Position numbers and translations under genes: made by a program. The notes beneath the pieces are model-generated. The model did not search any database and was not told where the DNA came from. It saw only the letters and a program-made list of their open reading frames with translations. Shown in pieces: positions 4,852 through 40,723 of a stretch of 43,368 nt of DNA. Source of the stretch: an uncultured Erysipelotrichaceae bacterium (GTDB lineage: Bacteria; Bacillota_I; Bacilli_A; RFN20; CAG-826); assembly GCA_902800645.1 (NCBI GenBank), contig CADCFC010000012.1:1-43368 (forward strand). The letters are read 5' to 3'. How positions within the stretch are numbered: the first letter of the stretch is position 1; each line of letters opens with the position of its first letter.

Positions 4852-7800
4852 CTACTCACTTCTTAAAGCAATAACAGGGTCTTGTTTAGATGCACTGAAT
4901 GATGGAATAAGTCCACTTAGTACACTAAGCAAGATAGAAATACCAATCATCATTAAGGCGTAATACCAAGGTAAAGCGCAAATTCGAGCAATGCCAAATG
5001 GTTTAACGATCGCATTAATTATGATCTGTAATAAATATGTAACTGCAATACCAAGAACACCACTACTTAATCCAGTAATAAGGTTTTCGGCAATAAATAG
5101 ACGTGATACGTCTCTTTTTCTTCCTCCAAGAGAACGAATAACGCCGATCTCTTTAACTCTTTCCATAACAGAAATATAAGTTATAACTGCGATCATGAAG
5201 CAGGAAACAACAAGAGAAAGGGAAGTAAAGGCGATTAAAGCAATACTAATTGTAGTTACTAAAGTAGAGATAACCGTAACAATCATACTGATTGTGTCGG
5301 TGTAAGTTATTTCGCTTCTCATCTCTCTACTGATAGGCACTCCATTAATAATAATGGTCTCACTCGAGTTCCATCTATCTAAATAGGAAGTGACATTGTT
5401 CTTGTTTTGGAAGTTCTTTGGATAAATAGAGATTTTATTTGGAAGAGGAGCAATCTCGTGACCCGTAATTGTAGAAGTATCATCAGGATCGACAATATCT
5501 TTAACTTTAAGGCCGGATAAAGAGCGAAGGTGAAGTTTATCAGTTTTCAAGTTATCAGTACCACTACTTAAAAAAGAAGCAAAAATAGAGGTGATATTTG
5601 AAGATTGATCTCCATTGAGCGCACTAGCGTATCCGTATTTATTATCAGGTGTGAAGGTTTCACTGCCATCATCTTTAGAGTAATCATCGTAATAGAATTG
5701 AACATAAGCGTTAAAAGTAGACTCGGTATAGCGTTTATTTTTAATGTGATTTTCAAAGGCGAGATTAATCTCACTTTTTTTAGCGTCATCACGATAAAGT
5801 TCAGAGAATTGTTTACTAAAGTAAACACCACGAGAAAGTGTTCCGAAGTTTGTCGTTTCTTTTGGTTTTAGAATACCTACGACTTTGACTTTCATAATCT
5901 TATCGCTATAATCCGGATTAGTTGGATCGATTACTGCATCGTAATAATAATCAGGTGTTTCTGGATCAAGTTGAGAAACTCCGGCAAGTTTACTTAATGT
6001 TGCATAAGTGGTAATAAATGGAAAACCATTCTTAATTTTAGAAACAGTCGCATTCGCGTCATAAGTAACGGTTCTATCTTTGCCTAAAACAGGTTTAGGA
6101 TTACTCGTTACGAAATTAACGATAAAAATCTTTTGGAAGAATTCCTGATGCTCACTAATTAAAGGAAGAATTTCCAAGATTGATTTGTTTCTAAGTTCGG
6201 AGATGAACTCTAAATCATCTTTAGTGATTTCATCGGTATTAACCATAAACCAGCTGCCTTCGATTTCACTTTTAGTAGCGTCTTTATTACGGTCACCCAT
6301 TCTTGAGGCCATTACTGTATGCATAACAGCTTCATCACCGTTAATCTCAATCGCACTTCCACTCATCGTTTCGCTACCTGGTTCCATATTTAAAGAAAGG
6401 TAGTAATTTCCTCCACTAGTTTTAGTGCCGGTTAAATTAACAGAAATCTGTTTATGAGAAACAAGAGTAGGATCTTTTTCATATAGCGAAGCGTGTGGAA
6501 GATAATAAAATTCATGATTTAAAATATCATCAATATTAAATGATGAATCGTATTTATATTTATCGTCTAATGCTTTAAGCTCTGCTTCTTTAGCAGCAAT
6601 CTGCGCTTTGACTTCTTCAGTTTGACCTTGCCTTTTTAAATCAGCGATTTCTTTTTCAATCTTATTTCCTTCAACTGCTTTTTTAGCGATGTTAAGGAAT
6701 TGATCTTGAGGGTAATAGCCCATTTGTGCAAGGGTCAAATCGGTCATCGTTTGATTTTTATCAACAACTAAGACAAATTCATCTTTTTGAGTTGGGAACT
6801 TCGAATCACCAAGCATGTCATATTGAGAAAGGAGATATTCGCTTTCCGCTGGTAACTGTTTCATAAAGCTAGTGAATAAATCCACAAATTGAGCGTAGTT
6901 AGAGAATCCCTTAACCGTCATTAATGTCTTAATATATTGTTGAGTAAGACCGTTCATAGAAATGAATTCACTATCACCATCATTTTTCTTTTTAAAGGAA
7001 GTGAAAATGTTATTAGTTGGGTCAATACCATATTCATAATTAATTGCAGAATAATAAGATGTTGGCATCTGTTTAATGTAATTCACTAAAGTTTCAGTTA
7101 TTTCATTTGTTTTCACATTAGTGAAATCAGTGTATTTAGTTAAGAGATATTCGATCATCGAATCCATTCCCACTTGAGTGGAAGTATCAAAATTCGCTAA
7201 TGTGGCTTTCTCTTGATTTGATAAACCAGAAAGAAGAGATGTTAAATCTATTGCTTCTTCATTAATTTGAATTGGATAAGATGAAAGCATGTCATCTTGC
7301 ATGTAATAGATATAATCATTAACCCCACAAGAGACGCCTAAAATAGTAGAAACACCAATAATACCAATGCTTCCTGCAATAGCGACTAATAGAGTTCTTC
7401 TAAATTTAGAAAGAAGATTAGAAACTGATAACGCTCCAGCAGTAAAGAAAGACATCGAAGATTGTTTCTTGCCTTTGGTTTTACGGTATTGGCTTCTACT
7501 AGCAATATCTTTTTGCCTAGAAATATAATCTCTAAGTTTCTTCCTTGATTCAGGAGTGGTAATAGATTCGTCTTTATAGTTGATAAATGGACGTTTGACT
7601 TCTTTGAGCACTAAAGCGTCGTTAACTTTTTCTTTTAATAGGTAATATGAAGTGTTGTGTTCAATTGGTTCATCAACATAGTTGATATTGCTATCATCAG
7701 TGATAAGACCGTCCTTCATCTTTACGATACGAGTCGCGTATTCATTAGCTAAGTCAGGGTTATGTGTAACCATGATAACGAGATGGTTTTTGCTAACTTC

Positions 7801-8358
7801 TTTAAGTAAGTCCATGATTTGGACAGAAGTTTCACTATCGAGAGCACCAGTAGGTTCATCCGCTAAAACGATTTCTGGATTATTGACAAGAGCACGAGCG
7901 ATTGCCACTCTTTGCATTTGTCCTCCAGAGAGTTGGTTTGGTTTTTTCTTATATAAGCCTTTTAATCCAACTCTATCTAAGGCTTCTTTACTCCTTTGAA
8001 TTCTCTCTTCTTTTTTAATACCAGAGATTGTTAATGCGAGTTCGACATTTTTTAAAATAGTTTGGTGAGGAATGAGGTTGTAGGATTGGAAAACAAAACC
8101 GATTGAGTGATTACGATAAGTATCCCAATCGTTATCTTTAAATTCTTTTGTGGATCGACCTTTAATGATCAAATCACCACTATCGTAATGATCTAATCCT
8201 CCAACAATGTTTAATAAGGTCGTTTTTCCACATCCGGAAGGTCCTAAAATCGCGACGAATTCATTAGCTCTAAAAGTTAAAGAAATACCTTTAAGAGCGT
8301 GAACTGGTTCTTGATCTTTTAACGCATAATCTTTTTTGATTTCACGTAGCTCTAACAT
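4852..8358 (-). CDS. MacB/FtsX-like ABC transporter, ATPase fused to permease with very large external domain
   Basis: A single 1168-residue polypeptide with an ATP-binding domain (about 1-225; Walker A GPSGCGKTT at 39-47, signature LSGGQMQR, Walker B LADEPTGALD), a linker (about 230-300), one membrane helix (about 315-340), an extracytoplasmic domain of some 650 residues including a coiled coil (about 555-600), and a C-terminal FtsX-type block of three membrane helices with EIGVIRSLGGRKRDV. This is the topology of MacB-type mechanotransmitters, which move peptides, toxins or lipoproteins, or signal cell-wall enzymes, rather than pumping through the membrane. The substrate is unknown. The linker at residues 234-280 contains EVKRPF (253-258) and closely resembles the N-terminus of the ABC ATPase at 35705-36844. 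Start ATG 8358 follows GGAGGAAAAGGT. It heads the operon with rimO and GH3. Confidence 0.88.
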   Translation of the reverse strand: MLELREIKKDYALKDQEPVHALKGISLTFRANEFVAILGPSGCGKTTLLNIVGGLDHYDSGDLIIKGRSTKEFKDNDWDTYRNHSIGFVFQSYNLIPHQTILKNVELALTISGIKKEERIQRSKEALDRVGLKGLYKKKPNQLSGGQMQRVAIARALVNNPEIVLADEPTGALDSETSVQIMDLLKEVSKNHLVIMVTHNPDLANEYATRIVKMKDGLITDDSNINYVDEPIEHNTSYYLLKEKVNDALVLKEVKRPFINYKDESITTPESRKKLRDYISRQKDIASRSQYRKTKGKKQSSMSFFTAGALSVSNLLSKFRRTLLVAIAGSIGIIGVSTILGVSCGVNDYIYYMQDDMLSSYPIQINEEAIDLTSLLSGLSNQEKATLANFDTSTQVGMDSMIEYLLTKYTDFTNVKTNEITETLVNYIKQMPTSYYSAINYEYGIDPTNNIFTSFKKKNDGDSEFISMNGLTQQYIKTLMTVKGFSNYAQFVDLFTSFMKQLPAESEYLLSQYDMLGDSKFPTQKDEFVLVVDKNQTMTDLTLAQMGYYPQDQFLNIAKKAVEGNKIEKEIADLKRQGQTEEVKAQIAAKEAELKALDDKYKYDSSFNIDDILNHEFYYLPHASLYEKDPTLVSHKQISVNLTGTKTSGGNYYLSLNMEPGSETMSGSAIEINGDEAVMHTVMASRMGDRNKDATKSEIEGSWFMVNTDEITKDDLEFISELRNKSILEILPLISEHQEFFQKIFIVNFVTSNPKPVLGKDRTVTYDANATVSKIKNGFPFITTYATLSKLAGVSQLDPETPDYYYDAVIDPTNPDYSDKIMKVKVVGILKPKETTNFGTLSRGVYFSKQFSELYRDDAKKSEINLAFENHIKNKRYTESTFNAYVQFYYDDYSKDDGSETFTPDNKYGYASALNGDQSSNITSIFASFLSSGTDNLKTDKLHLRSLSGLKVKDIVDPDDTSTITGHEIAPLPNKISIYPKNFQNKNNVTSYLDRWNSSETIIINGVPISREMRSEITYTDTISMIVTVISTLVTTISIALIAFTSLSLVVSCFMIAVITYISVMERVKEIGVIRSLGGRKRDVSRLFIAENLITGLSSGVLGIAVTYLLQIIINAIVKPFGIARICALPWYYALMMIGISILLSVLSGLIPSFSASKQDPVIALRSE

Positions 8359-8467: not shown

Positions 8468-8917
8468 CTATTCTTTAATCTTTTTGATACACTCAAGGAT
8501 TTCATCCTTATTTGGATGCCCTCTTTCAATTATTTTACGATTGAGTTGGAAATAGAAATAAGAGTAGATGACATCAGCCAAAAGTATCAAAAATGATGGA
8601 AGAAGGAAAGCGAGAGAATTACTCACTAAATCAAATCTACTTCTCTCTTGCGCTAAAAGAATTACGAACACGCTAAGTAAGGTAAAAGATATAGCGACAA
8701 GAATAATGATTGGAACAAAAGGCGGTCCTTTTTTAAATAAGCTTCTTTCAAATCTCATAAGTTCAGCATAATGAGGTTCGTTTTCATCAATTTCCATCGT
8801 AATAGAAGCGTCAATTCCTTTTTCAAGATAAGCGACTTCCTTATATCCTAATTCAGTGAAAATTTCTTTTCTTTCACGGTATTGAGGAATAGTCATTTTC
8901 TTTTTCACTCTAATCAT
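8468..8917 (-). CDS. Small two-helix membrane protein, function unknown
   Basis: A 149-residue protein that I cannot place in a family. It has a charged N-terminal cytoplasmic part (about 1-68, with YRERKEIFTELGYKEV), two strongly hydrophobic helices (about 69-90 and 102-125) and a charged C-terminal tail ending KDEILECIKKIKE. Its start overlaps the stop of the acyltransferase gene upstream by 8 nt, so it is translationally coupled to it and probably works with the lipid enzymes of this operon. A terminator follows at 8411-8444. The tight overlap and normal codon use support it as a real gene. Confidence 0.75.
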   Translation of the reverse strand: MIRVKKKMTIPQYRERKEIFTELGYKEVAYLEKGIDASITMEIDENEPHYAELMRFERSLFKKGPPFVPIIILVAISFTLLSVFVILLAQERSRFDLVSNSLAFLLPSFLILLADVIYSYFYFQLNRKIIERGHPNKDEILECIKKIKE

Positions 8918-9725
8918 GTTCTTTTTCCTCTTCCACTTTTACATACTTAATATATTCATATTGATTCACACTATTGGCGAAATTTTGCATCGCCTTAAGC
9001 GTCTCTTCATGTAGGTAATTTTTGTTCTCGTTTATATCCATATCTTTATTTGGGAAAATAGGTTCCAAAATGTTAACTGTTTGACGTGGAGTTTTACCAA
9101 TGAGTGGCTTTCTCCAAGTCGTCACCACTGGAATAACTGGAGCGTTACAATGAGCAGGGTAAGCAAAGCTTCCATTTCTAAATGGTCTAACACCAGTGTA
9201 ATAAGGCCAAATATGTGCTTCTGGATAGATTAAAATATATTGTTTCTTACGAATATAATACTCAAAAGCTTCCCCGAGTCTAAGCGCGTTTTTTACATCC
9301 CCTTTAAGTGGGAGAGGAAGATAGCCAAGCGCTCTAGTAAGGTTTCTAACAAAAGGCATACTTAAGCTATCAGAATATCCTAAGATATTCACTCTTCTGC
9401 CAAAGAAGAAAACTTTAGCCTGGAATTTAAAGACATCACTAATTGAAACGTGATTGGAATAAATAAAAGCGCCTTCACCTTTAACCGCTCTAAGATTCTT
9501 TCTACCTTTCACTCTAATTCCGTGACAAGTACAAAAAATCCAAAAAACTGGTTTAGCAATTCCATGATATAAAATTGCAGAAAAGAAGGTATTAATTGGG
9601 TTGGTTCTCTTATATTTATAATTTTCAGGAACCGGAGGACGAGAAAGACCGATTTCATTAAAATCGTCTCTTAATTCGTCGTGATAATACGCTACTTTTG
9701 TTTTCTTAACTTCCTTAAAATTCAT
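8910..9725 (-). CDS. PlsC-like lysophospholipid/glycerolipid acyltransferase
   Basis: A 271-residue member of the PlsC acyltransferase superfamily. The catalytic HX4D motif is NHVSISD (His92, Asp97) and the glycerolipid-binding block III reads IYPEAHIWPYYTGVRPF, in place of the more usual FPEGTRS, which is seen in divergent members. A hydrophobic stretch near residues 48-68 would anchor it at the inner face of the membrane. PlsC enzymes transfer an acyl chain to lysophosphatidic acid; divergent copies acylate other lipids or glycolipids, and the neighbouring GT2 and PAP2 genes make a glycolipid or modified lipid plausible here. It lies 6 nt downstream of the GT2 gene and overlaps the next gene by 8 nt. 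Family is confident, acceptor unknown. Confidence 0.85.
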   Translation of the reverse strand: MNFKEVKKTKVAYYHDELRDDFNEIGLSRPPVPENYKYKRTNPINTFFSAILYHGIAKPVFWIFCTCHGIRVKGRKNLRAVKGEGAFIYSNHVSISDVFKFQAKVFFFGRRVNILGYSDSLSMPFVRNLTRALGYLPLPLKGDVKNALRLGEAFEYYIRKKQYILIYPEAHIWPYYTGVRPFRNGSFAYPAHCNAPVIPVVTTWRKPLIGKTPRQTVNILEPIFPNKDMDINENKNYLHEETLKAMQNFANSVNQYEYIKYVKVEEEKEHD

Positions 9726-9731
9726 AATTAC

Positions 9732-10961
9732 CTATTTAATCGCACTATTAGTGACTTCTCCGGTGTGTTTTACTCTCTTCCAGTTAGTTTTCTTATTCGG
9801 ATGGAAAAATCCGTCTAAAAAGGCCAAAGCAAAATCGTAGAAGAAGAACATATATGTAAGCATTCCGATGATTTTGTTTTTAGTTGTTAAATTCATTCTT
9901 TCATTATCTCTGATTATTGTAATAATCGCTGGAGTAACAAAAGACATATAAACGAGAAGGAATTGGAATCCACTTAAACCGAATAATAAACCGATTTGAG
10001 CGGGATTGCCTCCATGGAATATAGAGATAATTCCAAACACTAAATCGATAACTGCGGAAATAGAAATCACAACATTAAAGATAACAAATGGAATAAGACC
10101 ACAGTTGAATTCAAAATTCATAAATGAAAGAAGGTTTTTAGGATGGTAATCATATTGAACACCAGCCTTCTTTAAAAACTTTCTTCTTTGCATATATCCC
10201 GCAAGCCAACGAAGGTGTTGATTATGAACAGTCTTAAAATCAGTGGATTGTTCATCATAGAAACAAACTTCAGGATAATAACGCATGTAAACATCGTGGT
10301 AATAACAGTATGATGTGAGTTGAATATCTTCGGTCATACCAGTAAAGATCCATCCGCCTGCGTCAGCGACAATCTTTTCATCAACAAAATATCCGGTTCC
10401 CATTAAAGTTGCTTTATGGAATAAGATGCTTCTTCCTTTGGAAGTAACTTGATTCATATACGCAAACATCAAGGACGAGCCAATAGTTAGCCAGTTAGAA
10501 TTCGCATTAGTGAAATTACGGTAGCCTAAACCCACCATTACACCAGTCTGACGAAGGTCATTCATCACTTCTAAATAATTGTCATCTAGTATGTTATCTG
10601 CGTCAAAAATCATGTACGCATCATAATGGATATTATTCCTCCATAAATTATCGATGCATTCTTGAAGTGCGAAACCTTTGGTTCTTCTTCCGTCCATCAA
10701 GCGATCTCTAACAAAATATTGAAATCCAAATTCTTTAACGATATTAATAGTTGGATCGCTTTCCTTTTCAACAATTACATATACTTCAAAGCTATTACGG
10801 GGATATGTTTGTTTCTTTAAGGAAGATAGCAGATGCGAAATAACTTCGCTTTCATTTCTCGCAGCGATTAATACGGCGAATTTTGAAAGTTTATCACTAT
10901 GAGGCACTTTAACTTCTTTTCTCGCAGATAAGCTCCAGAATAAAAGATAATAAAGCGACAT
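9732..10961 (-). CDS. Processive-type family 2 glycosyltransferase, probably frameshifted at the N-terminus
   Basis: A GT-A fold glycosyltransferase of 409 residues as written. Visible motifs are VLIAARNESEV (nucleotide binding), FDADN (Asp120/Asp122, metal-sugar binding), GMTEDIQ (TED, catalytic base) and NQHLRWLAG (the QxxRW motif of processive synthases such as cellulose, hyaluronan or diglucosyl-diacylglycerol synthases), followed by three or more membrane helices. Both flanking genes handle lipids, so glycolipid synthesis is the best guess. The start MSLYYLLFW has no ribosome binding site; the 41 bases upstream encode, in another frame, a hydrophobic start MDYNALIIVVSLF beginning 5 nt after the PAP2 stop. 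One extra T in the TTTT run would join them into a normal N-terminal membrane helix. Confidence 0.85.
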   Translation of the reverse strand: MSLYYLLFWSLSARKEVKVPHSDKLSKFAVLIAARNESEVISHLLSSLKKQTYPRNSFEVYVIVEKESDPTINIVKEFGFQYFVRDRLMDGRRTKGFALQECIDNLWRNNIHYDAYMIFDADNILDDNYLEVMNDLRQTGVMVGLGYRNFTNANSNWLTIGSSLMFAYMNQVTSKGRSILFHKATLMGTGYFVDEKIVADAGGWIFTGMTEDIQLTSYCYYHDVYMRYYPEVCFYDEQSTDFKTVHNQHLRWLAGYMQRRKFLKKAGVQYDYHPKNLLSFMNFEFNCGLIPFVIFNVVISISAVIDLVFGIISIFHGGNPAQIGLLFGLSGFQFLLVYMSFVTPAIITIIRDNERMNLTTKNKIIGMLTYMFFFYDFALAFLDGFFHPNKKTNWKRVKHTGEVTNSAIK

Positions 10962-11007: not shown

Positions 11008-11691
11008 TTATTCTTCGGTTTTTGTTTCGCTTTCTTTATTAAAGAAATAATGATAAAAATGCACAAAGGCAAAATAGATAGAAATAACAAGCAATACACT
11101 AGCGATAATATCAGTCAACCAGTGTTTAGCGCTAAGCGCTCTAGAGAATGTTAATAACACACAAATGAGTAAGGTTGCGCCAAAAGCGAGATAATTAATC
11201 CATTTCTTCTCGCTATTGAGTAGTTTTAGACAAACATAAGTATTGAGCAAATAGAATGAACAGCCAATGAATACATGGCTACTTGGATAGCTCGCCTTAA
11301 TTCCTTCAGAAACATCTGGAGAATAATTAACTTTAACGAGTTCAAAGATGAAATAGAATATAACAACTACTACGTAGCCCGCTAAAAGGAGCCACAATCT
11401 TTTATCGACTGCTTTAAGGGATTTGTTCTTGATAAGTTGATATAGACCAATTCCCGCTAAGATAGCGACATAGCCAAAGGAAATATAGAAGAAAATATCA
11501 CTAATCTTTTTCATGCTGTCATATTTTTGAAGTGACATCACCCAATTACCAAAATCCATGTTGATTTTAGTAAACCCAAGATATGTGTTGCTATAAATAT
11601 ATGTGACGTCAACAGTTTTCACCAAAACAGTGAATAAGATGAATAAACTGAAGATCGCTCCTGAAACAATTAAATATAGGTATTTTTTCAT
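11008..11691 (-). CDS. PAP2-family membrane phosphatase
   Basis: A 227-residue integral membrane phosphatase of the type 2 phosphatidic acid phosphatase family. The second and third catalytic blocks are PSSH (136-139) and SRALSAKHWLTD (Ser183-Arg184, His190, Asp194), matching SRX5HX3D; the first block KX6RP is not recognisable in full, only a lysine at 132 in front of the PSSH. About six membrane helices surround the active site, which in this family lies at the outer membrane face. Members dephosphorylate phosphatidic acid, phosphatidylglycerophosphate or undecaprenyl pyrophosphate. Next to an acyltransferase and a glycosyltransferase, making diacylglycerol or recycling a lipid carrier would fit. 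A 12 bp hairpin overlaps its ribosome binding site. Confidence 0.85.
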   Translation of the reverse strand: MKKYLYLIVSGAIFSLFILFTVLVKTVDVTYIYSNTYLGFTKINMDFGNWVMSLQKYDSMKKISDIFFYISFGYVAILAGIGLYQLIKNKSLKAVDKRLWLLLAGYVVVVIFYFIFELVKVNYSPDVSEGIKASYPSSHVFIGCSFYLLNTYVCLKLLNSEKKWINYLAFGATLLICVLLTFSRALSAKHWLTDIIASVLLVISIYFAFVHFYHYFFNKESETKTEE

Positions 11692-11771: not shown

Positions 11772-14700
11772 CTACTTGTAAATTTTAGCAGTAGTTTTGT
11801 ATGGATTATCAGGATTATTGAAGTAGCTATTTGAGATATTAACAGCTTGTAATCCACTTAATCCGCTTTGTCCTTTATTGTTCCAGCTATTAAGAGCGTC
11901 AGCTTTGGTGAGTTGAGCTTCTTCAACTGAAGCGGCAAAGGAAACATCAATACTAACAACCTTAACGATTTCAATATGTAAGGAAGCATTTAAGCTAGAT
12001 AAGATATCAATACCTTTGGTATTTCCTTCATAGGTAATACGCTTACTTGTGATTGTGGCTTCGAGTTGTTTTAAGACATCAATACCGGTTAATTCGTTGA
12101 GATTTAATCCGAGTTTGATGGTGTTCTTAGTGGATAATCCACTACCAGAAACAGTTGCCTTAAAGCCGGTGCTTGTAAAGGTATTAGTGAAATTACCTGC
12201 TGGTTTTTCATCGCTAGAAGAACTACTACCAATTTCATCGAGTTTAAAGAGATTATAAGCAGTATCACTTAATCCCATAACACCTTTGACTAAATATTTA
12301 GCAATGTTATCCATGAAGTTCGCGCTATCAGTGCGGTAATGATAAGTAGTCACATCATCGTAATATTTACGTGTTGGTAACCATCCTTCCCAGACGAGTT
12401 CGCTGCTTGGATCGGTAAGTTTACGTCTGATATCGAATGTACCGCCAACTTTGTTGTCTGTATCGTCATCATAGGTTTGGAAACCAAATTCACAAGACAT
12501 GACTTTGTCGCCTTCAATGACACAGTCAGTGGTGAAAACAGGAAGAATTTTGATTTTATCAATTGTTCCGTAAACCTTAACGTGTACTCCATCAACATAA
12601 ATATAGAAGTTAATTCCATTAATTGGGACGGTAATACCAACGTTACTATCAACATTTAAATCAGCACTTAAGTGATAGAAGTTGAGTTTTGTGGTATTGA
12701 TTCCAAGATCAAGAAGAGTCTTAATGCCATCTAAATCCATGTAATCATTTGTCATAGAGACAACATTAGCATAGCTATCATCGTAATCTTGTAACTCGAA
12801 TGTTAAGTTGAGTTTCTTTGCGTCATCTTTATTGCTTAAGGCGAGATTATTGATGACTAATGATTTTAATGTTTGATTGCCGATTTCATTATCGCCATTA
12901 AAATTAATGGTGAGTTCGATATCGCTTGGCAAACCAATTAAATCTTTGGCGATAACAATACGGATTGCACCACCATTATTGATGACGCTGATTTCTTTAA
13001 GTAATTCATTACTTGCAAAGTGTAAGTAATCTCTACTTTCGATGATGTCTCCAATCGCAGACATTCCAAGTAATTTGGTAATAGGAGCTAAGAACTTATT
13101 GTATTTTGGATCACTACCGAAATCGCCAATAAATGTCTTAACAATATCAAAGATATCAACAAAGGATTGTAATTTCATTTTACCCTTAACATTATCACTT
13201 GATGGATCACCATAAATGAATCTTGCTAAGTTGTTATTTTGTTTGATTGTTTTTCCGGTTTCTGGATCAGTAACACTACTGACGTTTTCAGCTAAGTTAG
13301 TAACATCAACTGCGAGTAGGTGTTGAGCCCACATCTCATTACCGTGATATTTATATTCATTAATGGTCATTGTGCCATATCCTTCTTTAACGAGGTCGTT
13401 ATTGTCTAATTGACCACGTCCATCAAAGGAGATACCAAGACCTTCGCTATTTTTCATATCACCATAGATACGGAAACCAGTTTTCTTTGTTTGTGCTAAA
13501 TTAGAAACTTGGTCAACGACATCTGGTAAGAATTGAATGGATTGATAATCAGTTTTATTTCCAAGATCAACTGAAGAGAATTCAGTGCTCTTTAAGCTAG
13601 CGTCTAATTCAAAATTACCAAATGCGAGATCGGTAACATCAATATTTAATGTGTTAGCGTCAACTGCATCAAGAATAGATAAATCAATTCTTGCGTTTTC
13701 ACCAATGCCTAAGGAAGAAATGTCTAAACCAAGTCTAATACCTTCTGCATCATTTTCTAAGGTTTCAATCATTTCTAAAATGAATGAATAGTCGCCGTTA
13801 TCAATTGCTTCAACAACTTCATCACTTAAGAAACCTTTTAACGTATCTAAAGTATTGTTATTTTCATCACCGCTTAAGCCAGTTAATAATTCTGGGACTT
13901 TAGCGACAATCCAGTTCATGGTTTCAGTTGGAACGTTGAGTTTCATGACAGATTTCTTTTGTCCTAAAACTTCTTGCTCGTTGAATCTTAAGAAACCTTC
14001 GCCATCCGCAAAGACTAATGCAAGATTAGCGTATTCAACATTATTTTGACCGATTAAATCTAATTGTAAGTTGAATCCAACTTTCTTAATGGTGTCATAT
14101 AAAGTTGTATCTTCATTATTTCTCTTTAAGGCACTTGCAGGAACAAATCCTTCTGGGTGCTTTGTGTATTGTGATAAATCAAGTAATTCATCAAAGTCAA
14201 CATTGATAGAACCTTTGACGTGAGCGATATCAACAACTTTGTTGACATCTTGATCGGTTTCTTCATCTTTAACTGTGTATTTGTTATCTAAATCTAAAGC
14301 GAATTCAAAACCTAATCTTTGTTTGTTTTGATCTTCTGCAACTAATGTTGCGAGTTTAGAAATTAAACCAGTGTAGTTAAACATTTCAACATACTCTGGA
14401 TCGCTTGCTGGAGAAACGAATTCATCATATGGTTTTAATTCGATGTTAATCGCACCACTAATGGTGATGTTACCAAAGGTGATAGTGCCTAAATCAACTT
14501 TCTTTAATGTGTAATCATCATCCGCTACAAGTTTAATGCACAAATCGCTTCCTTCTTCACCTAAAGTGAATGTCCAAGAATTGTTAGCAAAACTTTCTTT
14601 TGGTCCTTCCGCGAGTAATTTAGAAATATCGAATGAACTTCCACTTTCTTCAGTGCTTTCTGTAGATTCTGGTTTAGGTGCTTCTTGCTTATTCAATAAG

Positions 14701-15311
14701 CCATCAACTAATGCAAAAACCTTCTCAGTAAGTAATTGGTCTAAGCCTTTATAAAGTTGAGCGAAGTCTAAATGAGCATTCATCGCAAATGTGTACCACA
14801 TATTGTCGATAATATTTTCTTCAGAGAAATCTGTAATCTTAAGTTTCATATCCTTAAGACCGAAATATAAGGTGTTATTGAAGTGTCCTAAAGTAATTGG
14901 TAATACTTGACCATTGTAATTCGCAACAGCGTCAACGTTTAATTCGATACCATTTAAAGAGAGATCACTGATTCTTAAGTCAACTCCACCATCAACGGAA
15001 ATGTTGTTTACATATGAAGAATTTTCAACACTGTATTGAACTTTAAAGTTCTCGAATCGAGCGCTTAAATAATTAGCTTCTTTTTCAGGAACTGAGGTTT
15101 CTTCCTCATCTTCAGATAAACCAACATCTCTTGTCAATTTCTCGACAAACTTCTCAAATGGAGTCTTTTCAGCTTCCTTAATAGAAACATCAATAAAATG
15201 GGTTCTATTAGGTGTTAAAACATATGCTCCAAAGAGAGTTCCTGCAAAAGCCACAAAACCTGTTGCGACTTTTCCTGTTGTTTTTAATACTTTCTTGAAT
15301 TTTTGATTCAT
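11772..15311 (-). CDS. Very large membrane-anchored extracytoplasmic protein, function unknown
   Basis: A 1179-residue protein that I do not recognise. It starts with a basic stretch and one membrane helix (about 13-33, TGFVAFAGTLFGAYVLT) with no lipobox or LPXTG signal, so the remaining 1140 residues are probably anchored outside the cell. The ectodomain is rich in Asp, Asn, Thr and alternating hydrophobic residues typical of long beta-sheets, and several parts look alike: repeated phrases of the type 'D-L-S-L-N-G-I-E-L', 'NLALSNKDDAKKLNLTF' and 'GINFYIYVDGV'. It has few cysteines and an acidic low-complexity patch around residues 205-225. The gene follows a 308 aa anchored partner by 3 nt, with its GGAGG inside the partner's last codons, and precedes PAP2 and other lipid enzymes. 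A scaffold or lipid-carrying role is only a guess. Confidence 0.85.
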   Translation of the reverse strand: MNQKFKKVLKTTGKVATGFVAFAGTLFGAYVLTPNRTHFIDVSIKEAEKTPFEKFVEKLTRDVGLSEDEEETSVPEKEANYLSARFENFKVQYSVENSSYVNNISVDGGVDLRISDLSLNGIELNVDAVANYNGQVLPITLGHFNNTLYFGLKDMKLKITDFSEENIIDNMWYTFAMNAHLDFAQLYKGLDQLLTEKVFALVDGLLNKQEAPKPESTESTEESGSSFDISKLLAEGPKESFANNSWTFTLGEEGSDLCIKLVADDDYTLKKVDLGTITFGNITISGAINIELKPYDEFVSPASDPEYVEMFNYTGLISKLATLVAEDQNKQRLGFEFALDLDNKYTVKDEETDQDVNKVVDIAHVKGSINVDFDELLDLSQYTKHPEGFVPASALKRNNEDTTLYDTIKKVGFNLQLDLIGQNNVEYANLALVFADGEGFLRFNEQEVLGQKKSVMKLNVPTETMNWIVAKVPELLTGLSGDENNNTLDTLKGFLSDEVVEAIDNGDYSFILEMIETLENDAEGIRLGLDISSLGIGENARIDLSILDAVDANTLNIDVTDLAFGNFELDASLKSTEFSSVDLGNKTDYQSIQFLPDVVDQVSNLAQTKKTGFRIYGDMKNSEGLGISFDGRGQLDNNDLVKEGYGTMTINEYKYHGNEMWAQHLLAVDVTNLAENVSSVTDPETGKTIKQNNNLARFIYGDPSSDNVKGKMKLQSFVDIFDIVKTFIGDFGSDPKYNKFLAPITKLLGMSAIGDIIESRDYLHFASNELLKEISVINNGGAIRIVIAKDLIGLPSDIELTINFNGDNEIGNQTLKSLVINNLALSNKDDAKKLNLTFELQDYDDSYANVVSMTNDYMDLDGIKTLLDLGINTTKLNFYHLSADLNVDSNVGITVPINGINFYIYVDGVHVKVYGTIDKIKILPVFTTDCVIEGDKVMSCEFGFQTYDDDTDNKVGGTFDIRRKLTDPSSELVWEGWLPTRKYYDDVTTYHYRTDSANFMDNIAKYLVKGVMGLSDTAYNLFKLDEIGSSSSSDEKPAGNFTNTFTSTGFKATVSGSGLSTKNTIKLGLNLNELTGIDVLKQLEATITSKRITYEGNTKGIDILSSLNASLHIEIVKVVSIDVSFAASVEEAQLTKADALNSWNNKGQSGLSGLQAVNISNSYFNNPDNPYKTTAKIYK

Positions 15312-15314
15312 TTT

Positions 15315-16241
15315 TTATGCCTCCTGGCTGTAGTTAATTGCTTCGTTAGATTTAGGGATATCTCGTGAAGCGTCGTTTGAATAATAGTAGTATTCGATTA
15401 AGTTGTGTGTTTTGGCGGGGTAAGGAATACCAGACTTAGTCGCCACATATGTTTCATCCACGTGTAGATGTTTGAGTTCAAGGTCTTTACTAAACGTATA
15501 AGTTAACTTGACTTCACTAAACGGTGGAAGATTAGCTAATCCTGAGATGTTCTGCATTTGAATTTTGTAATTAAATGTAGAAATGTTTGGATTTAACTCT
15601 AGATAAAGTTCAACATCATCACCCTTCTTAGATACCGAACTTTTTGTTGTAGTCTTATCGGAGATTATATAGATGAACATTTCATCAAGGGATTTACCTA
15701 AGTAGCTCTTATATCCTGCTCTGTCAAACTTTTGAGTTGGGCCTTCAGGATAACTTGCCGTTTCAGGACCGCTAGCAGAGCCGCCATATAGGTCAACGCC
15801 GCCATCTTTTCCTTCCTGGATGGATCGATTAGCAACCGACACCATGCTTGAGTAAGAAATTTGTTCCTCGAAATAGGTATTACCTCTCTTTATTTGTGCG
15901 CTACGTATGGTTTGCGCAACAATACCAGCATCCGCAACCCCGATACCTAATGAATAATTATTTTCATTTCTTCTATAATTCTCTAACACGATATTTGCGA
16001 TATCTGAATTTGAGAATTTTGGGTTAACAGAGTTTGCAACTCCATCATATGTTTTGTTGCTAAGAGTCTCATACTTACCATAGATTTCTTCAATGTTAAC
16101 TGAGAACTCAGAAGGATCAAATCCTGGTGGATACATTTCGTCAATAGGACCAAGTGTTCTCTTTAGGATTACACCTGAGCCAACGCCAGCAACTCCACAT
16201 ATTCCGATTATTAGCAAATAGCTTAGTAGGGTTTTGTTCAT
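15315..16241 (-). CDS. Membrane-anchored extracytoplasmic protein, function unknown
   Basis: A 308-residue protein with an N-terminal membrane anchor (about 5-26, LLSYLLIIGICGVAGVGSGV) and an external domain. No lipobox is convincing. The ectodomain begins with PPGFDPSEFSVNIEEIYGKYE, has a helical middle (residues 70-145) and a Gly/Ser-rich loop DGGVDLYGGSASG near 148, then an Ig- or beta-sandwich-looking C-terminal half. I do not recognise the family. Its stop codon TAA lies 3 nt before the start of the 1179 aa gene and its last codons supply that gene's ribosome binding site, so the two are surely coupled and likely partners. It is the first gene of the probable lipid/envelope operon and diverges from the XRE regulator at 16418. 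Confidence 0.82.
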   Translation of the reverse strand: MNKTLLSYLLIIGICGVAGVGSGVILKRTLGPIDEMYPPGFDPSEFSVNIEEIYGKYETLSNKTYDGVANSVNPKFSNSDIANIVLENYRRNENNYSLGIGVADAGIVAQTIRSAQIKRGNTYFEEQISYSSMVSVANRSIQEGKDGGVDLYGGSASGPETASYPEGPTQKFDRAGYKSYLGKSLDEMFIYIISDKTTTKSSVSKKGDDVELYLELNPNISTFNYKIQMQNISGLANLPPFSEVKLTYTFSKDLELKHLHVDETYVATKSGIPYPAKTHNLIEYYYYSNDASRDIPKSNEAINYSQEA

Positions 16242-16297: not shown

Positions 16298-16343
16298 CTC
16301 TCCTAAATGTGAGAGTCTCTAATTTTCTCTCTAAATTTGAGAA
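16298..16343. promoter_or_regulatory. Paired operator-like sites between the envelope operon and the XRE regulator
   Basis: The 12-mer CTAAAT[GT]TGAGA occurs twice, at 16303-16314 and 16331-16342, 28 bp apart. Each copy is the core of an imperfect palindrome (CTCTC-N8-GAGAG at 16298-16315; CTCTC-N7-GAGAA at 16327-16343). Position between divergent genes fits a site for the XRE protein encoded next to it. Binding is inferred. Confidence 0.55.
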
Positions 16344-16417: not shown

Positions 16418-17023
16418 ATGAAAAGTTTAGGAATTATTATTGGAGAGAACCTTATTTATCTCCGAAAAAAGGCCGGATTAACACAATATGAATTCGGTGA
16501 AAAGTTCAATTATTCCGATAGAACTGTATCAAAATGGGAACTCGGTGATGTGATCCCAAACACTGAAACAATCAAAGAAATAGCAGACTTTTATGGCGTT
16601 AGCGTTGACTTTATTTTAACTGAACATACAAGCCAAGAAGACTTCTTTAAGATTGTTAAAAATGCCCCTAACGCAGGCAATAAAATTTCTTTAATATCTT
16701 TAATTGTCACTATTATTCTTTCTATTGCTGTAACTATTTATATTGCTGGCGTTTATAATCACGGGACAACTAATCCACAAGTAAATAAGAACTGGCTTGC
16801 TTTTGTATGGTCTGTGCCTGTTAGTGCCCTTGTTATAGCTATATTAGTTAAAAGACTATTTGGTTCACGTAAACACGCTCTAGTATGGTTAAGCGTATTC
16901 GTTTGGACAATTTTACTAGCAGCCTTCTTTACGTTCTTATATAAAGATGTATATTGGTATCTATTCTTTATTGGAATACCAGTTCAAGCCTGTTTAATTA
17001 TCCTAATGTATATGAAGAAATAA
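16418..17023 (+). CDS. XRE-family transcriptional regulator with C-terminal membrane domain
   Basis: A 201-residue fusion of a Cro/CI-type helix-turn-helix (about residues 6-66; IGENLIYLRKKAGLTQYEFG followed by RTVSKWELGDVIPNTETIKE) to four predicted membrane helices (about 90-112, 125-146, 152-172, 178-198). Such membrane-tethered XRE proteins are common in Firmicutes and are often divergent from membrane or envelope genes, sensing a membrane signal; the signal here is unknown. Its only close promoter is an extended -10 directly at the start codon with no ribosome binding site, so it is probably translated from a leaderless mRNA. Two palindromic sites in the gap toward the envelope operon are candidate operators for autoregulation and control of that operon. 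A terminator follows immediately. Confidence 0.9.
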   Translation: MKSLGIIIGENLIYLRKKAGLTQYEFGEKFNYSDRTVSKWELGDVIPNTETIKEIADFYGVSVDFILTEHTSQEDFFKIVKNAPNAGNKISLISLIVTIILSIAVTIYIAGVYNHGTTNPQVNKNWLAFVWSVPVSALVIAILVKRLFGSRKHALVWLSVFVWTILLAAFFTFLYKDVYWYLFFIGIPVQACLIILMYMKK

Positions 17024-17093: not shown

Positions 17094-18671
17094 CTAAGCG
17101 GTTTTGGTACAAGTTATAGTCATTGAACCGGTTGTAACCTTGTCAAAGTTAACAGTCCAACCTAACGATTGCTTGTTGTTCAGCTTAGAGCCATTCGTAA
17201 ATTGAGAACTATAATCAGAAATGCTAAATGAGCTTCCAGTCTTAAATAGCATTGAAACATTTAAAGTAGTCGCGTCGTTATATGGATTCTTTTTATTGTT
17301 TCTAATTAAATGATTAATATTGTATGCTTCGTTTCCGGCATAATTAATTGCACGTACACCGCTAGAGGTATTGTTAGTTGCGTTAATATAAAAACTTCCT
17401 TGTTCAATTACATTAGTGACTTCACCAATAGGTTTGTTTCCAATGTAACCAGTAATTTTATATAATCTAGCGTCAACATGCCAAACTCTAACACCCACAT
17501 CATTAACTCCTTGGGCATAGCCACCATAACGAAATAATGTATCTTTTTGATTCAATCCTTGAGGAGAATATAATTCAAGAATTATATATTCATCAAATGG
17601 AGATCCAGTATAGTTAGGAGAAAGAACAACGAGTTCTCCGCTACTTTCCATAGTGTTAACTTGGAATGTGCATGTCTTATCTGGCACAAATGGTTCAACC
17701 CATCCTAAAGCAAGTCTAGAGAATGGATCGTGCCCACCAACGTTATTATCTTGCATAGAAAATCCTGCGGCAGGAGAATACTGATAAGTATAATCGTAAT
17801 AATCGTCTAAGCCAAAAACATGTCCCATTTCATGAATATATGTGTGTGCGTCGATTACAGAACCATTACTAGTAATTCCACTTCCATATGTAGATTTACC
17901 GGTTCTAGAAAGCGCATTTGTTTTTGAATACATAAAGTCATAACTAGCCCAAAAGAACGCATTAGCGTTTGGACTAGCCACTGAGCCTTTATTAGTTTGA
18001 GTCCAATAACAATAGGCCCACAAATTATTTTCGCTTTGTCCAGCAGCGTTATAATCTGGAGCACCATAAATAAGCATAACTCCATCTAAATATCCATCTT
18101 TATCGGCGTCAAATTCAGATAATGATGTGCTTTGTCCACTTGTCTTATACCAACTAACCGCAGAAGACACTAAAGCAGACGTTCTAGTCGCATAATCATC
18201 ATCATCTCTATAATAGCTACTAGCTTTGCCACATGAAAACCAAGTAGATACTTTTCCAGAAATAGTTAATTTATTAAACGAATCTTTTTTGTAATATGAT
18301 GAAACGCTTTCCCAACCAGTTTCACTGCTAGTTCCAAAATAAGCGGTTTGTATATCTTGCCTCACTGATTCTTTTTTAGCGTCACTAATATAAGTTGAAG
18401 AATCAGTAAACCACACTGGAATAACTAATAGGTGTGATTCTCCAATTGAAGGAGAAACGCTTTTATTTCCAGCATAATTATCAATATATGTTTTATATGT
18501 GTACTTAGTTTTGACAATATTTACACCTCTTTCGGTAGGCACAATAATTGTAGGATCTCCCTCAGGTGTTTTACCGTCTCCAGAAAAAGCAGAATAAAAA
18601 TCCGCAAATGAGCAACTTGCTAACGCGAGTGTTAGACCAGATAAAGCAAATATCTTTCTATAAAGCTTCAT
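17094..18671 (-). CDS. M6-like secreted metalloprotease lipoprotein
   Basis: A 525-residue exported zinc protease resembling the immune inhibitor A / M6 family. From ATG 18671 the protein has a lipoprotein signal peptide ending in the lipobox LASC (Cys20), a domain with HLLVIPVWFTD and SYYKKDSF, a calcium-loop-like DADKDGYLDG, the zinc motif HEMGH (His280, Glu281, His284) within HEMGHVFGLDDYYD, and a further MQDNNVGGHDPFSRLALGW segment characteristic of M6 enzymes; a beta-rich C-terminal domain follows. It would be tethered to the outer face of the membrane and digest extracellular protein. A TTG at 18710 in frame would add 13 residues but spoils the signal peptide. It lies 42 nt after the nuclease gene and both probably form an operon of extracellular degradative enzymes. 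Confidence 0.88.
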   Translation of the reverse strand: MKLYRKIFALSGLTLALASCSFADFYSAFSGDGKTPEGDPTIIVPTERGVNIVKTKYTYKTYIDNYAGNKSVSPSIGESHLLVIPVWFTDSSTYISDAKKESVRQDIQTAYFGTSSETGWESVSSYYKKDSFNKLTISGKVSTWFSCGKASSYYRDDDDYATRTSALVSSAVSWYKTSGQSTSLSEFDADKDGYLDGVMLIYGAPDYNAAGQSENNLWAYCYWTQTNKGSVASPNANAFFWASYDFMYSKTNALSRTGKSTYGSGITSNGSVIDAHTYIHEMGHVFGLDDYYDYTYQYSPAAGFSMQDNNVGGHDPFSRLALGWVEPFVPDKTCTFQVNTMESSGELVVLSPNYTGSPFDEYIILELYSPQGLNQKDTLFRYGGYAQGVNDVGVRVWHVDARLYKITGYIGNKPIGEVTNVIEQGSFYINATNNTSSGVRAINYAGNEAYNINHLIRNNKKNPYNDATTLNVSMLFKTGSSFSISDYSSQFTNGSKLNNKQSLGWTVNFDKVTTGSMTITCTKTA

Positions 18672-18713
18672 TTTATTCTTTTGTCCTTTTGTTATTGCCA
18701 CAATATTCAAGTT

Positions 18714-21700
18714 CTATAATTTGCTATTTTTCTTTTTTCTAATGATTAGATATGAACCTAATAAAGAAATTGCTAAAGAAGAAACGATAATATTAATAAT
18801 AATTAATTCATTATTTTCACTAAGAGTAAATAGTTTTGGAGCACTAATGACATAGTCGCCATCAATATGAGTAATAACTTTTCCTAACGCTTTTGCCCAA
18901 GCTTCAAATCTAGTTCTCGCAGTAGAAATAACGTAATCAGTACTTGCCATAAAGACATTTCTTTGAGACAAGGAAAGTCCTTCAAAATATCCTTTCGCAA
19001 CACTAAATTTTGTATTACATTGTCCGTTAGTGTCTTCATACATTATGTAATTTGCTACATTTGTAGCAGTGTCTTCAGAACCATAAGTTACTTCAACTTT
19101 ACTTATATAGACAGCTCCACTTGATGAACGAATGCCAACATACTCGTAAGAGGTAGTGAAATTAATTGTGCCTGTTGAAGAAAGAGAACCGACAAGATTA
19201 CCTTGACTTGAAGTAGAGTATAAATCGCTCGCACTACTATATGCTGTGTTTTTTCCATATACATTGATCGTGTTTGTGCCAGTTCCAACAGTAATTTTAA
19301 CGGAAGTAACTTTACCCCCAGATGAGGTAGAAACAATTCCACTATCACTGTTTTTTGAGCGAAGTTGAATGCGCCCAGAACTATCTTTTGCAGAATTGCC
19401 AGCATAAAGAGCGTCCGATTTATCTTCCACTCCATCAAAATCTACATAACTAGTATCGGTTGCCGCTAAAGCATTAGCAGTAATTTCATCAGTGACAGAA
19501 CTAATCGCTTGTCTAGCCACTCTTTGAACTTTTGCGGTCACAGAACAAGTGAAAGTACTATAAGTAATGGAGTTTGTAAACGTCTTATTTGTTTCCGCTC
19601 CTCCACTAGCAGCATCACTATATTTAAACGAGTAAGATATTTTGCTTTCGTAAGAGAATGTGAAATCAGTAATTACATTATTTAAATCATCTTTTACTTC
19701 GATATCATCTTTAGTAATTGTTTCTCCAGGATGGAAAACTTTGCTGTCTTTAATAGAAGCTGTGATTCCGGTAGGGACAGCATTAACTGTAATTGTATAT
19801 GTTGCTGTCTTAGTCACTCCGCCTTCGATATATGTAACAGTAACGGTTTTTTCTCCACTAGTAGACATATTTGGAGAAGAAACACTAGTTGGTGTAACAG
19901 TAGCGTCATCTTTACCTTGAGTATAATGAGCAGTAACAACTAATCCAGAATATGTAAATTCATCTCCAACGTTATATGTTTTCTTTACATTATCAGTATT
20001 CAAAGTAATAGAAGATAATTCAGGATCTGAAGATGGAGTTGACTCATATGTAACTGAAATTGCTGCTATTCTTCTATGGTTGGATGAACCGCCAATCGTA
20101 AACGTGACTGATGACGCACTGCCAGTCCAGGTCGGACTACTAAATCCTGATGGATTAGAAGTGATTTCGTTTGTAGAATCGCCGGAGCCATAGGTAAAAG
20201 TAATTCCAACAATTGTTTTTGTGGTCGAAGAAACGGTGAATGTATTTCCGGGATAAAGTCTAACAGCCGTTCCAGTATCATAATATTTTGGTGGATTATT
20301 TCCGGTGTTTTGATCGAAACTTATTTTGCAATTTGTTCCGTTAACAAGAGTTGCTTCTTCTCCATTATCAAATAATTCACTCATTGTAATAGTTTCACTA
20401 TCACCAGGAGTTGGAGTAGGTGTTGGAGTCGATGAATCACTAACGGTTACAGTACAACTACCAGACTTATCAGAATCAGCGGTTGATGTTGCAGTAACAG
20501 TATATGTTCCAGTTGTTGCATTACTTGCAGCGGTAACAACACAAGCGTTGTTATTTACATTAATACTGACACCTTGATTCTTTGGAGAGTAGTCCCAAGA
20601 AACAGTAGATGCAATATCACCAGTAACACTGACGGTCGCAGTTATACTTCCGCTTTTAGTGCCGTTTAAATCTAATTCTAATGACGATGGAGAGACTGAG
20701 ACTGAATTGACTTTTGGAGTGTCTCCACCGCCACCGCCACTTCTTCCCCATGTATATTCGGTTCCACCCCAAATCTTATACGCCCAGTTTGGGTGGTCAA
20801 TAAACACGTTTCTATTAACATTACTTTTACTAGAATAATTCCAAATAGCATTATTGCGATCAATTTCTTTTTGCGAAACAGGGTCTTCGGCGGACCATTT
20901 TGTTAAAAGCTTGATGTAATAAGACGAAAGGATATTGTGATTATTATTATCTCGGGTAAAACAAGAATTCGAGAGAGCAAATGATTGACTAAAATCATAA
21001 TATGATGCTGCCATATAAAGTATGCCACGAGCAATATCACCTTTATACGCATCTTCAGGTTCAAAAACAGTTGACGATCCGCAGTCCCCATATGTATTAA
21101 CTGGACTTCCAATGCCACCAAATGCCTTTGGATCAATTTTGGTTGTTGAACCACTAATTTCTCCGAAAGGATAATTAGAACGTTGCTGATTTACTTTTCC
21201 GTCAGTAGCAAAAATATGATGCGGATCTCCTTTAGGAGTAGCGCTTTCATTAAACCAAGATTGAGGAACAGTATGTTCACGGTTATATTTGTCACCAAAT
21301 TTCTGATATGTTCCAGCTTGATCGGTTCCTGGAGTGAATTGAGTGTCTCCGTACATATCCCAAATTTTTCCTCTATATCCAGAAGCGGTTTTGCTTGTCG
21401 GGTAAGGATTATTTGTTAATGGATCGGTACCATCATAATCATTTGGATATACATCACTCGTATAATATAGAGCCCAAAGGTCAGCGTAGGCAAAATGTGT
21501 TGATTTTGGTTGAACTAGTGAACATACTTTTTCGAGTAAAGTAGTACCACCGGTGCTTAAATCAGAATCGGTGATATTACTATTCGTATAATAGCTGCCA
21601 TTGTAATAAACATATTCGCCTTCATCATATCCATAATTAGACATTGCAGCGTTAACTTCTACGACGTCTTTTTTATGGTAGGTAAAAGATAACGCTCCAA

Positions 21701-21755
21701 CAATTAAAGGAAGGGCGGCTAAAGGTATAATAATTCCTTTTTTAAATCTATTCAT
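18714..21755 (-). CDS. Cell-surface endonuclease I family nuclease with Ig-like domains and membrane anchor
   Basis: A 1013-residue exported protein. It has a signal peptide (about 1-36), an endonuclease I (EndA/NucM-type) domain at about 80-335 with REHTVPQSWF (catalytic His161), DPHH (177-180), QQRSNYPFGE and NVFIDHPNWAYKIWG, then a bacterial Ig-like domain group 2 (about 350-440), a Pro-Thr spacer TPTPTPTPGD, beta-sandwich modules, another Ig-like region (about 575-660, YNVGDEFTYSGLVVTAHYTQG), and a C-terminal membrane helix followed by a basic tail RKKKNSKL. This is a surface-anchored non-specific nuclease that probably degrades environmental DNA for nucleotides. It forms a unit with the metalloprotease downstream. 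The central sandwich modules (about 440-570 and 760-900) share the DNA-repeat-like Ser/Thr/Gly-rich composition of sugar- or cell-wall-binding domains but I cannot name them. Confidence 0.9.
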   Translation of the reverse strand: MNRFKKGIIIPLAALPLIVGALSFTYHKKDVVEVNAAMSNYGYDEGEYVYYNGSYYTNSNITDSDLSTGGTTLLEKVCSLVQPKSTHFAYADLWALYYTSDVYPNDYDGTDPLTNNPYPTSKTASGYRGKIWDMYGDTQFTPGTDQAGTYQKFGDKYNREHTVPQSWFNESATPKGDPHHIFATDGKVNQQRSNYPFGEISGSTTKIDPKAFGGIGSPVNTYGDCGSSTVFEPEDAYKGDIARGILYMAASYYDFSQSFALSNSCFTRDNNNHNILSSYYIKLLTKWSAEDPVSQKEIDRNNAIWNYSSKSNVNRNVFIDHPNWAYKIWGGTEYTWGRSGGGGGDTPKVNSVSVSPSSLELDLNGTKSGSITATVSVTGDIASTVSWDYSPKNQGVSINVNNNACVVTAASNATTGTYTVTATSTADSDKSGSCTVTVSDSSTPTPTPTPGDSETITMSELFDNGEEATLVNGTNCKISFDQNTGNNPPKYYDTGTAVRLYPGNTFTVSSTTKTIVGITFTYGSGDSTNEITSNPSGFSSPTWTGSASSVTFTIGGSSNHRRIAAISVTYESTPSSDPELSSITLNTDNVKKTYNVGDEFTYSGLVVTAHYTQGKDDATVTPTSVSSPNMSTSGEKTVTVTYIEGGVTKTATYTITVNAVPTGITASIKDSKVFHPGETITKDDIEVKDDLNNVITDFTFSYESKISYSFKYSDAASGGAETNKTFTNSITYSTFTCSVTAKVQRVARQAISSVTDEITANALAATDTSYVDFDGVEDKSDALYAGNSAKDSSGRIQLRSKNSDSGIVSTSSGGKVTSVKITVGTGTNTINVYGKNTAYSSASDLYSTSSQGNLVGSLSSTGTINFTTSYEYVGIRSSSGAVYISKVEVTYGSEDTATNVANYIMYEDTNGQCNTKFSVAKGYFEGLSLSQRNVFMASTDYVISTARTRFEAWAKALGKVITHIDGDYVISAPKLFTLSENNELIIINIIVSSLAISLLGSYLIIRKKKNSKL

Positions 21756-40620: not shown

Positions 40621-40723
40621 AGTCAATCTCCTTCTTCCAAATGCTATTATAAAGGAGTTTTTAAATATATTCTATATTTCAACATATTTTAGACTTTTTA
40701 ACTTCTTGTCTCACTTACTTCAA

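Follow-up and report, generated by a model that had tools for sequence, protein, structure and literature searches.

An uncultured Erysipelotrichaceae bacterium of the CAG-826 lineage encodes two adjacent membrane-anchored proteins, here B (308 aa) and A (1,179 aa). We consider it close to an even chance that together they form one extracytoplasmic machine capturing or relaying environmental lipids or fatty acids in a wall-less, FabF-lacking gut bacterium. According to its structure model, B has the fold of the LolA/LprG/LppX lipid carriers, an assignment made with high confidence, and A is predicted, with moderate confidence, to resemble about four more LolA/LprG-type domains. The pair lies within the 43,368 nucleotides of contig CADCFC010000012.1 that were analysed (the window), and has the following features:

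15315-16241, minus strand: B gene (308 aa, membrane-anchored; from the ORF list), with one predicted LolA/LprG/LppX-fold domain
16164-16220, minus strand: N-terminal anchor helix of B, residues 8-26 (hydropathy)
15330-16064, minus strand: predicted LolA/LprG/LppX-fold domain of B, residues about 60-304 (structure model)
11772-15311, minus strand: A gene (1,179 aa, membrane-anchored); its internal repeats are interpreted as about four LolA/LprG-like domains in tandem
15213-15269, minus strand: N-terminal anchor helix of A, residues 15-33 (hydropathy)

The two genes follow each other on the same strand with a spacing of 3 nt. The original prediction, made from the letters of the window, had described two ORFs of these lengths and this spacing, each with one N-terminal helix and of unknown family, and both were found exactly where it had placed them, with the helices listed above. 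The models also contain these helices, spanning residues 2-30 in B and, with low confidence, 4-31 in A. In B or A of some members (L060, L086-L089) a lipobox-like N-terminal motif replaces the plain helix, which suggests that the domains lie outside the cytoplasm. B would thus be extracytoplasmic and membrane-anchored, given its single N-terminal helix, its lipobox-like relatives and the predicted topology. Both ORFs are genes and not chance products, since relatives at 16-62% protein identity (16-20% across the family) keep the two adjacent in 39 of 41 loci. The genome (1.3 Mb, 60 contigs) holds a single copy of A.

Neither protein matched a Pfam or NCBIfam family above the curated cut-off, and their relatives gave no convincing match in these databases either. 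The same searches found no known adhesin or enzyme domain in A or B, a fold of that kind being what the original prediction had named as evidence against itself. A sequence profile search of the PDB with B gave no match, and the chains returned with the A profile (cohesin, ubiquitin-like and toxin B-subunit, at E 0.04-1) were dismissed as noise.

The model of B (pLDDT 91.7, pTM 0.86) comprises 11 strands. When aligned with VIA-align, it matched LppX with a Z of 11.4 (rmsd 4.0, 169 residues aligned), followed by LprG (Z 10.9, and 10.5 and 10.4 for lipid-bound LprG), LprF (9.2) and LolA (8-10), and Foldseek concurred with VIA-align in assigning B to LolA/LprG/LppX. Members of the LolA superfamily have an 11-stranded core, and those characterised mostly bind lipid or lipoprotein; the RseB regulator and the VioE enzyme are exceptions to lipid carriage (PMC6363788). 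The modelled B has the 11-stranded open antiparallel sheet and the helical lid of this superfamily. The faces of its strands alternate in hydrophobicity, as in any beta sheet. The predicted fold agrees with the original expectation of a beta-rich structure connected with lipids.

RseB/MucB were also among the structural matches of B, which lends some weight to an unlikely, though not negligible, alternative in which the LolA-type domains bind protein or peptide, the pair being a receptor, an adhesin or an RseB-like envelope-stress sensor with the membrane HTH protein described below as its response arm. The dedicated, divergent and membrane-bound regulator with its conserved operator motif would suit such a role, and both the giant size of the proteins and their fast divergence (family-wide identity of 16-20%) are common traits of proteins exposed at the surface. 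On the other hand, the lipid carriers LppX and LprG match B best, 2-3 Z above RseB, no known adhesion domain was found in the Pfam/NCBIfam searches, and the length range of A in the loci compared below (950-1255 aa) is modest, unlike that of many adhesins.

The model of A has a pLDDT of 75.5 and a pTM of 0.57. Profile self-comparison aligned residues 104-600 with 363-868 (prob 99.6) and residues 56-560 with 602-1110 (prob 88). The repeats and their structural matches are as follows:

14376-15170, minus strand: A repeat R1, residues about 48-312; LprF Z 9.9, LprG Z 9.9, E. coli LolA (6f3z) Z 9.2
13548-14396, minus strand: A repeat R2, residues about 306-588; related in sequence to R3, with no listed structural match for R2 alone
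12726-13550, minus strand: A repeat R3, residues about 588-862; LprG (3mh8) Z 9.4 over about 588-849
11832-12740, minus strand: A repeat R4, residues about 858-1160; LppX Z 8.9 over 858-1148, LolA3 Z 8.3 over 862-1156

HHalign related R1 to R2 (prob 97.6), R2 to R3 (99.2, E 2.2e-19), R1 to R3 (66.8) and R1 to R4 (27.7), with reversed controls reaching 12.1 at most, R4 being the most divergent repeat by sequence. VIA-align also placed LolB in the R4 region, within 858-1156. A sequence relation between B and the A repeats was undetectable with HHalign. Three stretches of A match LprF, LprG, LolA or LppX at Z 8.9-9.9; because the OmpG and CymA barrels score as well, within 1 Z of LprG, the fold assignment of A is moderate and not firm, and that of R2 is drawn solely from its sequence relation to R3. 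The top Foldseek matches of full-length A (FimD, LptD and porins; probability ~0.1-0.5, TM ~0.1) were set aside as the noise of a long beta-rich model.

A shares with AsmA/TamB proteins its length, its richness in beta structure and its single N-terminal helix anchor, and the original prediction had proposed AsmA-like transport, with a long beta-groove to be sought by structure prediction. Instead, both the model (at the pLDDT given above) and the repeats suggest a series of separate LolA-type domains and not one continuous groove. The AsmA/TamB Pfam domain was absent from A and its 38 relatives, and membership of this family was rejected on the lack of a family match. The host lineage is not known to have an outer membrane.

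The genomic neighbourhoods of the pair were compared at 41 loci, the window's own included, in genomes sampled one per species from partly incomplete assemblies, with E-values calculated for single genomes. The B profile matched 79 of the 116 genomes of the window's family. An A-like gene of 950-1255 aa directly followed B in 39/41 loci, separated by -20 to +32 nt, and a divergent gene coding for an HTH plus membrane domain stood upstream of B in 27/41. The core unit is, as judged from the sequence comparison, this divergent membrane-bound HTH regulator together with B and A. The regulator, which the original prediction had overlooked as a member of the unit, and its candidate site are located in the window at:

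16418-17023, plus strand: divergent regulator with an XRE-type HTH and a membrane domain of about 4 predicted TM helices (domain search, hydropathy)
16328-16342, plus strand: putative operator TCTC-N7-GAGA in the HTH-B intergenic region (conserved inverted repeat)

This inverted repeat was present in 18 of the 27 HTH-B intergenic regions, against 0.12 expected from dinucleotide-preserving shuffles, and with other spacers (3 to 12) it was found in 0-3 loci each. The exact TCTC-N7-GAGA occurs once in the whole window, at the position listed, and since ~0.8 copies per window are expected by chance, the evidence for an operator is its conservation and not the single window match. The simplest reading would be that HTH, B and A are an autoregulated unit acting through this putative operator.

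In three other families of the same class (f10, f17 and f21), the B and A profile matches fell on one ORF of 1710-2802 aa, with the B part N-terminal and several A-like repeats behind it. That some lineages encode B and A in neighbouring genes and others in a single ORF speaks for a common function, in line with the paired action originally suggested. The architecture is well supported. A contig profile search with relatives of B recovered 20 loci, mostly from MAGs of uncultured Bacilli or Erysipelotrichaceae, and one with A alone gave no match.

Some loci depart from this arrangement. Four from one genus (L065, L067, L068 and L070) have another large gene (1136-1234 aa) after A, and their HTH gene is co-directional and downstream of A, between or after the two large genes. 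In two others (L084 and L090) the B-type domain is found in proteins of 476-520 aa with an N-terminal insertion of ~200 aa, and the profile detected no A-like partner there.

Downstream of A, the window carries the lipid genes that the original prediction had joined to the pair as one six-gene system:

11008-11691, minus strand: PAP2-like membrane protein (PAP2 E 8.8e-6, just under the Pfam cut-off)
9732-10961, minus strand: GT2 glycosyltransferase (domain match; local neighbour)
8910-9725, minus strand: PlsC-type acyltransferase (domain match; local neighbour)
8468-8917, minus strand: 149 aa protein with two TM helices, last gene before the hairpin (ORF list, hydropathy)
8444-8420, after the 149 aa gene: terminator-like hairpin (hairpin search)

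All four genes are present on the minus strand as described, and PlsC and the 149 aa gene overlap by 8 nt; the gaps are 80 nt (A-PAP2), 46 nt (PAP2-GT2) and 6 nt (GT2-PlsC). Given these short gaps, and with no terminator-like hairpin found in the window between B and the 149 aa gene, the six genes may share one transcript in this genome. Such a transcript would favour the earlier model, in which A and B export, AsmA-like or LprG-like, a lipid or glycolipid made by PAP2, GT2 and PlsC. PAP2 is indeed retained in 9 loci, and LprG carries lipids outward in mycobacteria (PMC6363788). We nevertheless hold this model to be very improbable, as the GT2-PlsC pair is missing in 38/41 loci and genes such as those for thymidylate synthase, RNase Y and a HAD hydrolase adjoin elsewhere, and as no AsmA/TamB family match was obtained. 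The set of GT2, PlsC, the 149 aa gene and the ABC gene occurred in 3/41 loci (the window, L031 and L035), all from the window's genus, and PAP2 stood beside the pair in 9/41, restricted to that genus and two other genomes; PAP2 is probably outside the core system. Hence, the neighbourhood comparison over 41 loci identifies the lipid genes as local company of an HTH/B/A unit, and coupling to PAP2, GT2 and PlsC was rejected as a defining feature. Most relatives have the pair without lipid genes, an outcome that the original prediction had itself counted as evidence against it.

Downstream genes at the other loci were mostly housekeeping, nucleoside phosphorylase among them, and a different GT2 followed at L052; L037, L039 and L059 end at or just past A and are uninformative in this respect. 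No partner transporter, LolCDE-like or other, was conserved at the locus. The ABC gene of the window (4852-8358, minus strand) encodes a 1168 aa fusion of an ABC ATPase and an FtsX-like permease, with a long insert, and it comes after the PAP2-GT2-PlsC cluster in L031 and L035 too.

Elsewhere in the window, a GH3 protein (1130-3559, minus strand) has its domains swapped, with GH3_C at 29-265, Fn3-like at 318-386 and GH3_N at 568-799. The gene at 18714-21755 (minus strand) encodes a secreted endonuclease I of 1013 aa that has both a Big_3 Ig-like domain and a hydrophobic segment at its C-terminus; an M6-type metalloprotease gene (17094-18710) lies next to it.

Fatty-acid synthesis and cell wall were judged by one marker each, FASII by FabF (PF00109) and the wall by PF00905. 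FabF was missing in 111/116 genomes of the family, that of the window included. B was present in none of the five family genomes with FabF (2 genera) and in 79 of the 111 FabF-less ones, a distribution with a chance of 0.15 at genus level. In the class sample, where weak B matches (E above 1e-5) were left out, a ketoacyl synthase was found in 3/50 genomes with B vs 95/246 without; outside families f1 and f2 the association had p = 0.12 with all matches counted and 0.004 with the odd proteins of G189 and G306 left uncounted. The correlation between FabF and B is therefore weak once kinship counts. Of the three B-carrying genomes with a ketoacyl synthase, G189 (contig 82) and G306 (contig 18), both of f21, encode unusual proteins of ~800 aa with two weak ketoacyl-synthase domains, and G277 combines a normal-looking FabF with a fused B-A. 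The 32 of 111 FabF-less genomes that are without B indicate that other routes exist.

The window's genome encodes three DegV/FakB proteins and two PF02504 (PlsX-type) proteins, a set that a cell relying on external fatty acids would be expected to have. One of the three is located in the window:

39739-40626, minus strand: DegV-family protein of FakB type, PF02645

A gene for an acyltransferase-3 family membrane protein (38750-39727) adjoins it. The gene at 26128-27657 (minus strand) probably codes for a cardiolipin synthase; its product carries PLDc_N and two PLD domains.

The PF00905 transpeptidase was absent from the window's genome and from all 33 family genomes sampled, and it was present in 133/263 other genomes of the class. 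The wall-poor cell that had been conjectured is borne out by this marker, and the missing transpeptidases would fit the published prediction that some RFN20 families (CAG-288, CAG-826) are peptidoglycan-deficient (PMC10868615). The array would then face the environment directly. Fused B-A proteins also occur in genomes with transpeptidases (e.g. G330, G361 and G367), so the system is not confined to wall-less cells.

A wall-less lineage would also be compatible with the array shielding the naked membrane, by sequestering or returning compounds such as bile acids and free fatty acids, which act as detergents or toxic lipids, or by extracting damaged lipids. The lipid-carrier fold would serve here too, a membrane-domain regulator could sense membrane stress, and record titles and literature on related orders suggest a gut or rumen origin for the relatives. 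We regard this explanation as improbable, however, as the locus has no conserved gene related to efflux or bile acids and the fused forms extend to transpeptidase-bearing lineages.

Lipid uptake by the pair, the explanation that we favour, can be set against known carriers. Its predicted likeness to LolA/LprG/LppX carriers comprises, for B, the N-terminal helix, the 11-stranded open sheet, the helical lid and the extracytoplasmic anchoring. Those carriers are small single domains (about 160-285 residues in the matched structures), whereas B and A have about five domains per pair, fusions of up to 2802 aa, no sequence similarity to solved chains and no conserved partner transporter at the locus. 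The closest structural matches of B, mycobacterial LprG and LppX, are lipid-carrying LolA-type lipoproteins, but of a single domain. LprG acts together with the exporter Rv1410, and its host cells have a mycomembrane.

If this explanation is right, the pair also recalls the lipid-extracting protein P116 (MPN_213) of Mycoplasma, which is likewise large and surface-located and belongs to a wall-less relative of Bacilli that depends on lipids. P116 is reportedly a homodimer of unique fold with one huge cavity, and its authors state that P116-like genes occur in Mycoplasma only, noting that similar undiscovered systems may exist (PMC10023570). In contrast, the fold of B and A would be LolA-like and serial instead of a unique single cavity, and a search of PDB chain sequences with the A profile, taken up to E 5, returned no P116 chain. 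We infer that the B/A array may be an unrelated functional counterpart of P116.

In the proposed mechanism, the one domain of B and the approximately four of A would form a chain on the outer face of the membrane and capture fatty acids, lysolipids or phospholipids from other membranes, micelles or lipoproteins in the gut. The lipids would pass from pocket to pocket, or be kept close to the membrane, before moving into the bilayer, and inside the cell their incorporation into phospholipid would fall to proteins of the DegV/FakB and PlsX types. The membrane-bound HTH protein, acting through TCTC-N7-GAGA, would tune expression to the state of the membrane or its lipids. Lipid binding, the direction of uptake, the hand-over between domains and this regulatory logic are what we infer from the architecture.

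We found in the open-access literature no explanation of how uncultured, wall-less and apparently fatty-acid-auxotrophic gut Bacilli are supplied with membrane lipid, and no description of tandem LolA-type surface proteins. The B/A pair is a concrete candidate for the analogous systems foreseen by the P116 authors (PMC10023570), with B in 79/116 genomes of one family and fused forms in further families of Bacilli. We tentatively put forward, as a possibility below an even chance, that wall-less gut Bacilli evolved, independently of P116, a serial LolA-type lipid-uptake machine, made as a pair or a fused giant, with its own membrane-bound regulator and a pocket-to-pocket relay that feeds fatty-acid-deficient cells. 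Should the domains bind lipid, this would be a serial array of LolA-type carriers, and lipid scavenging by these bacteria could be tested with the purified proteins.
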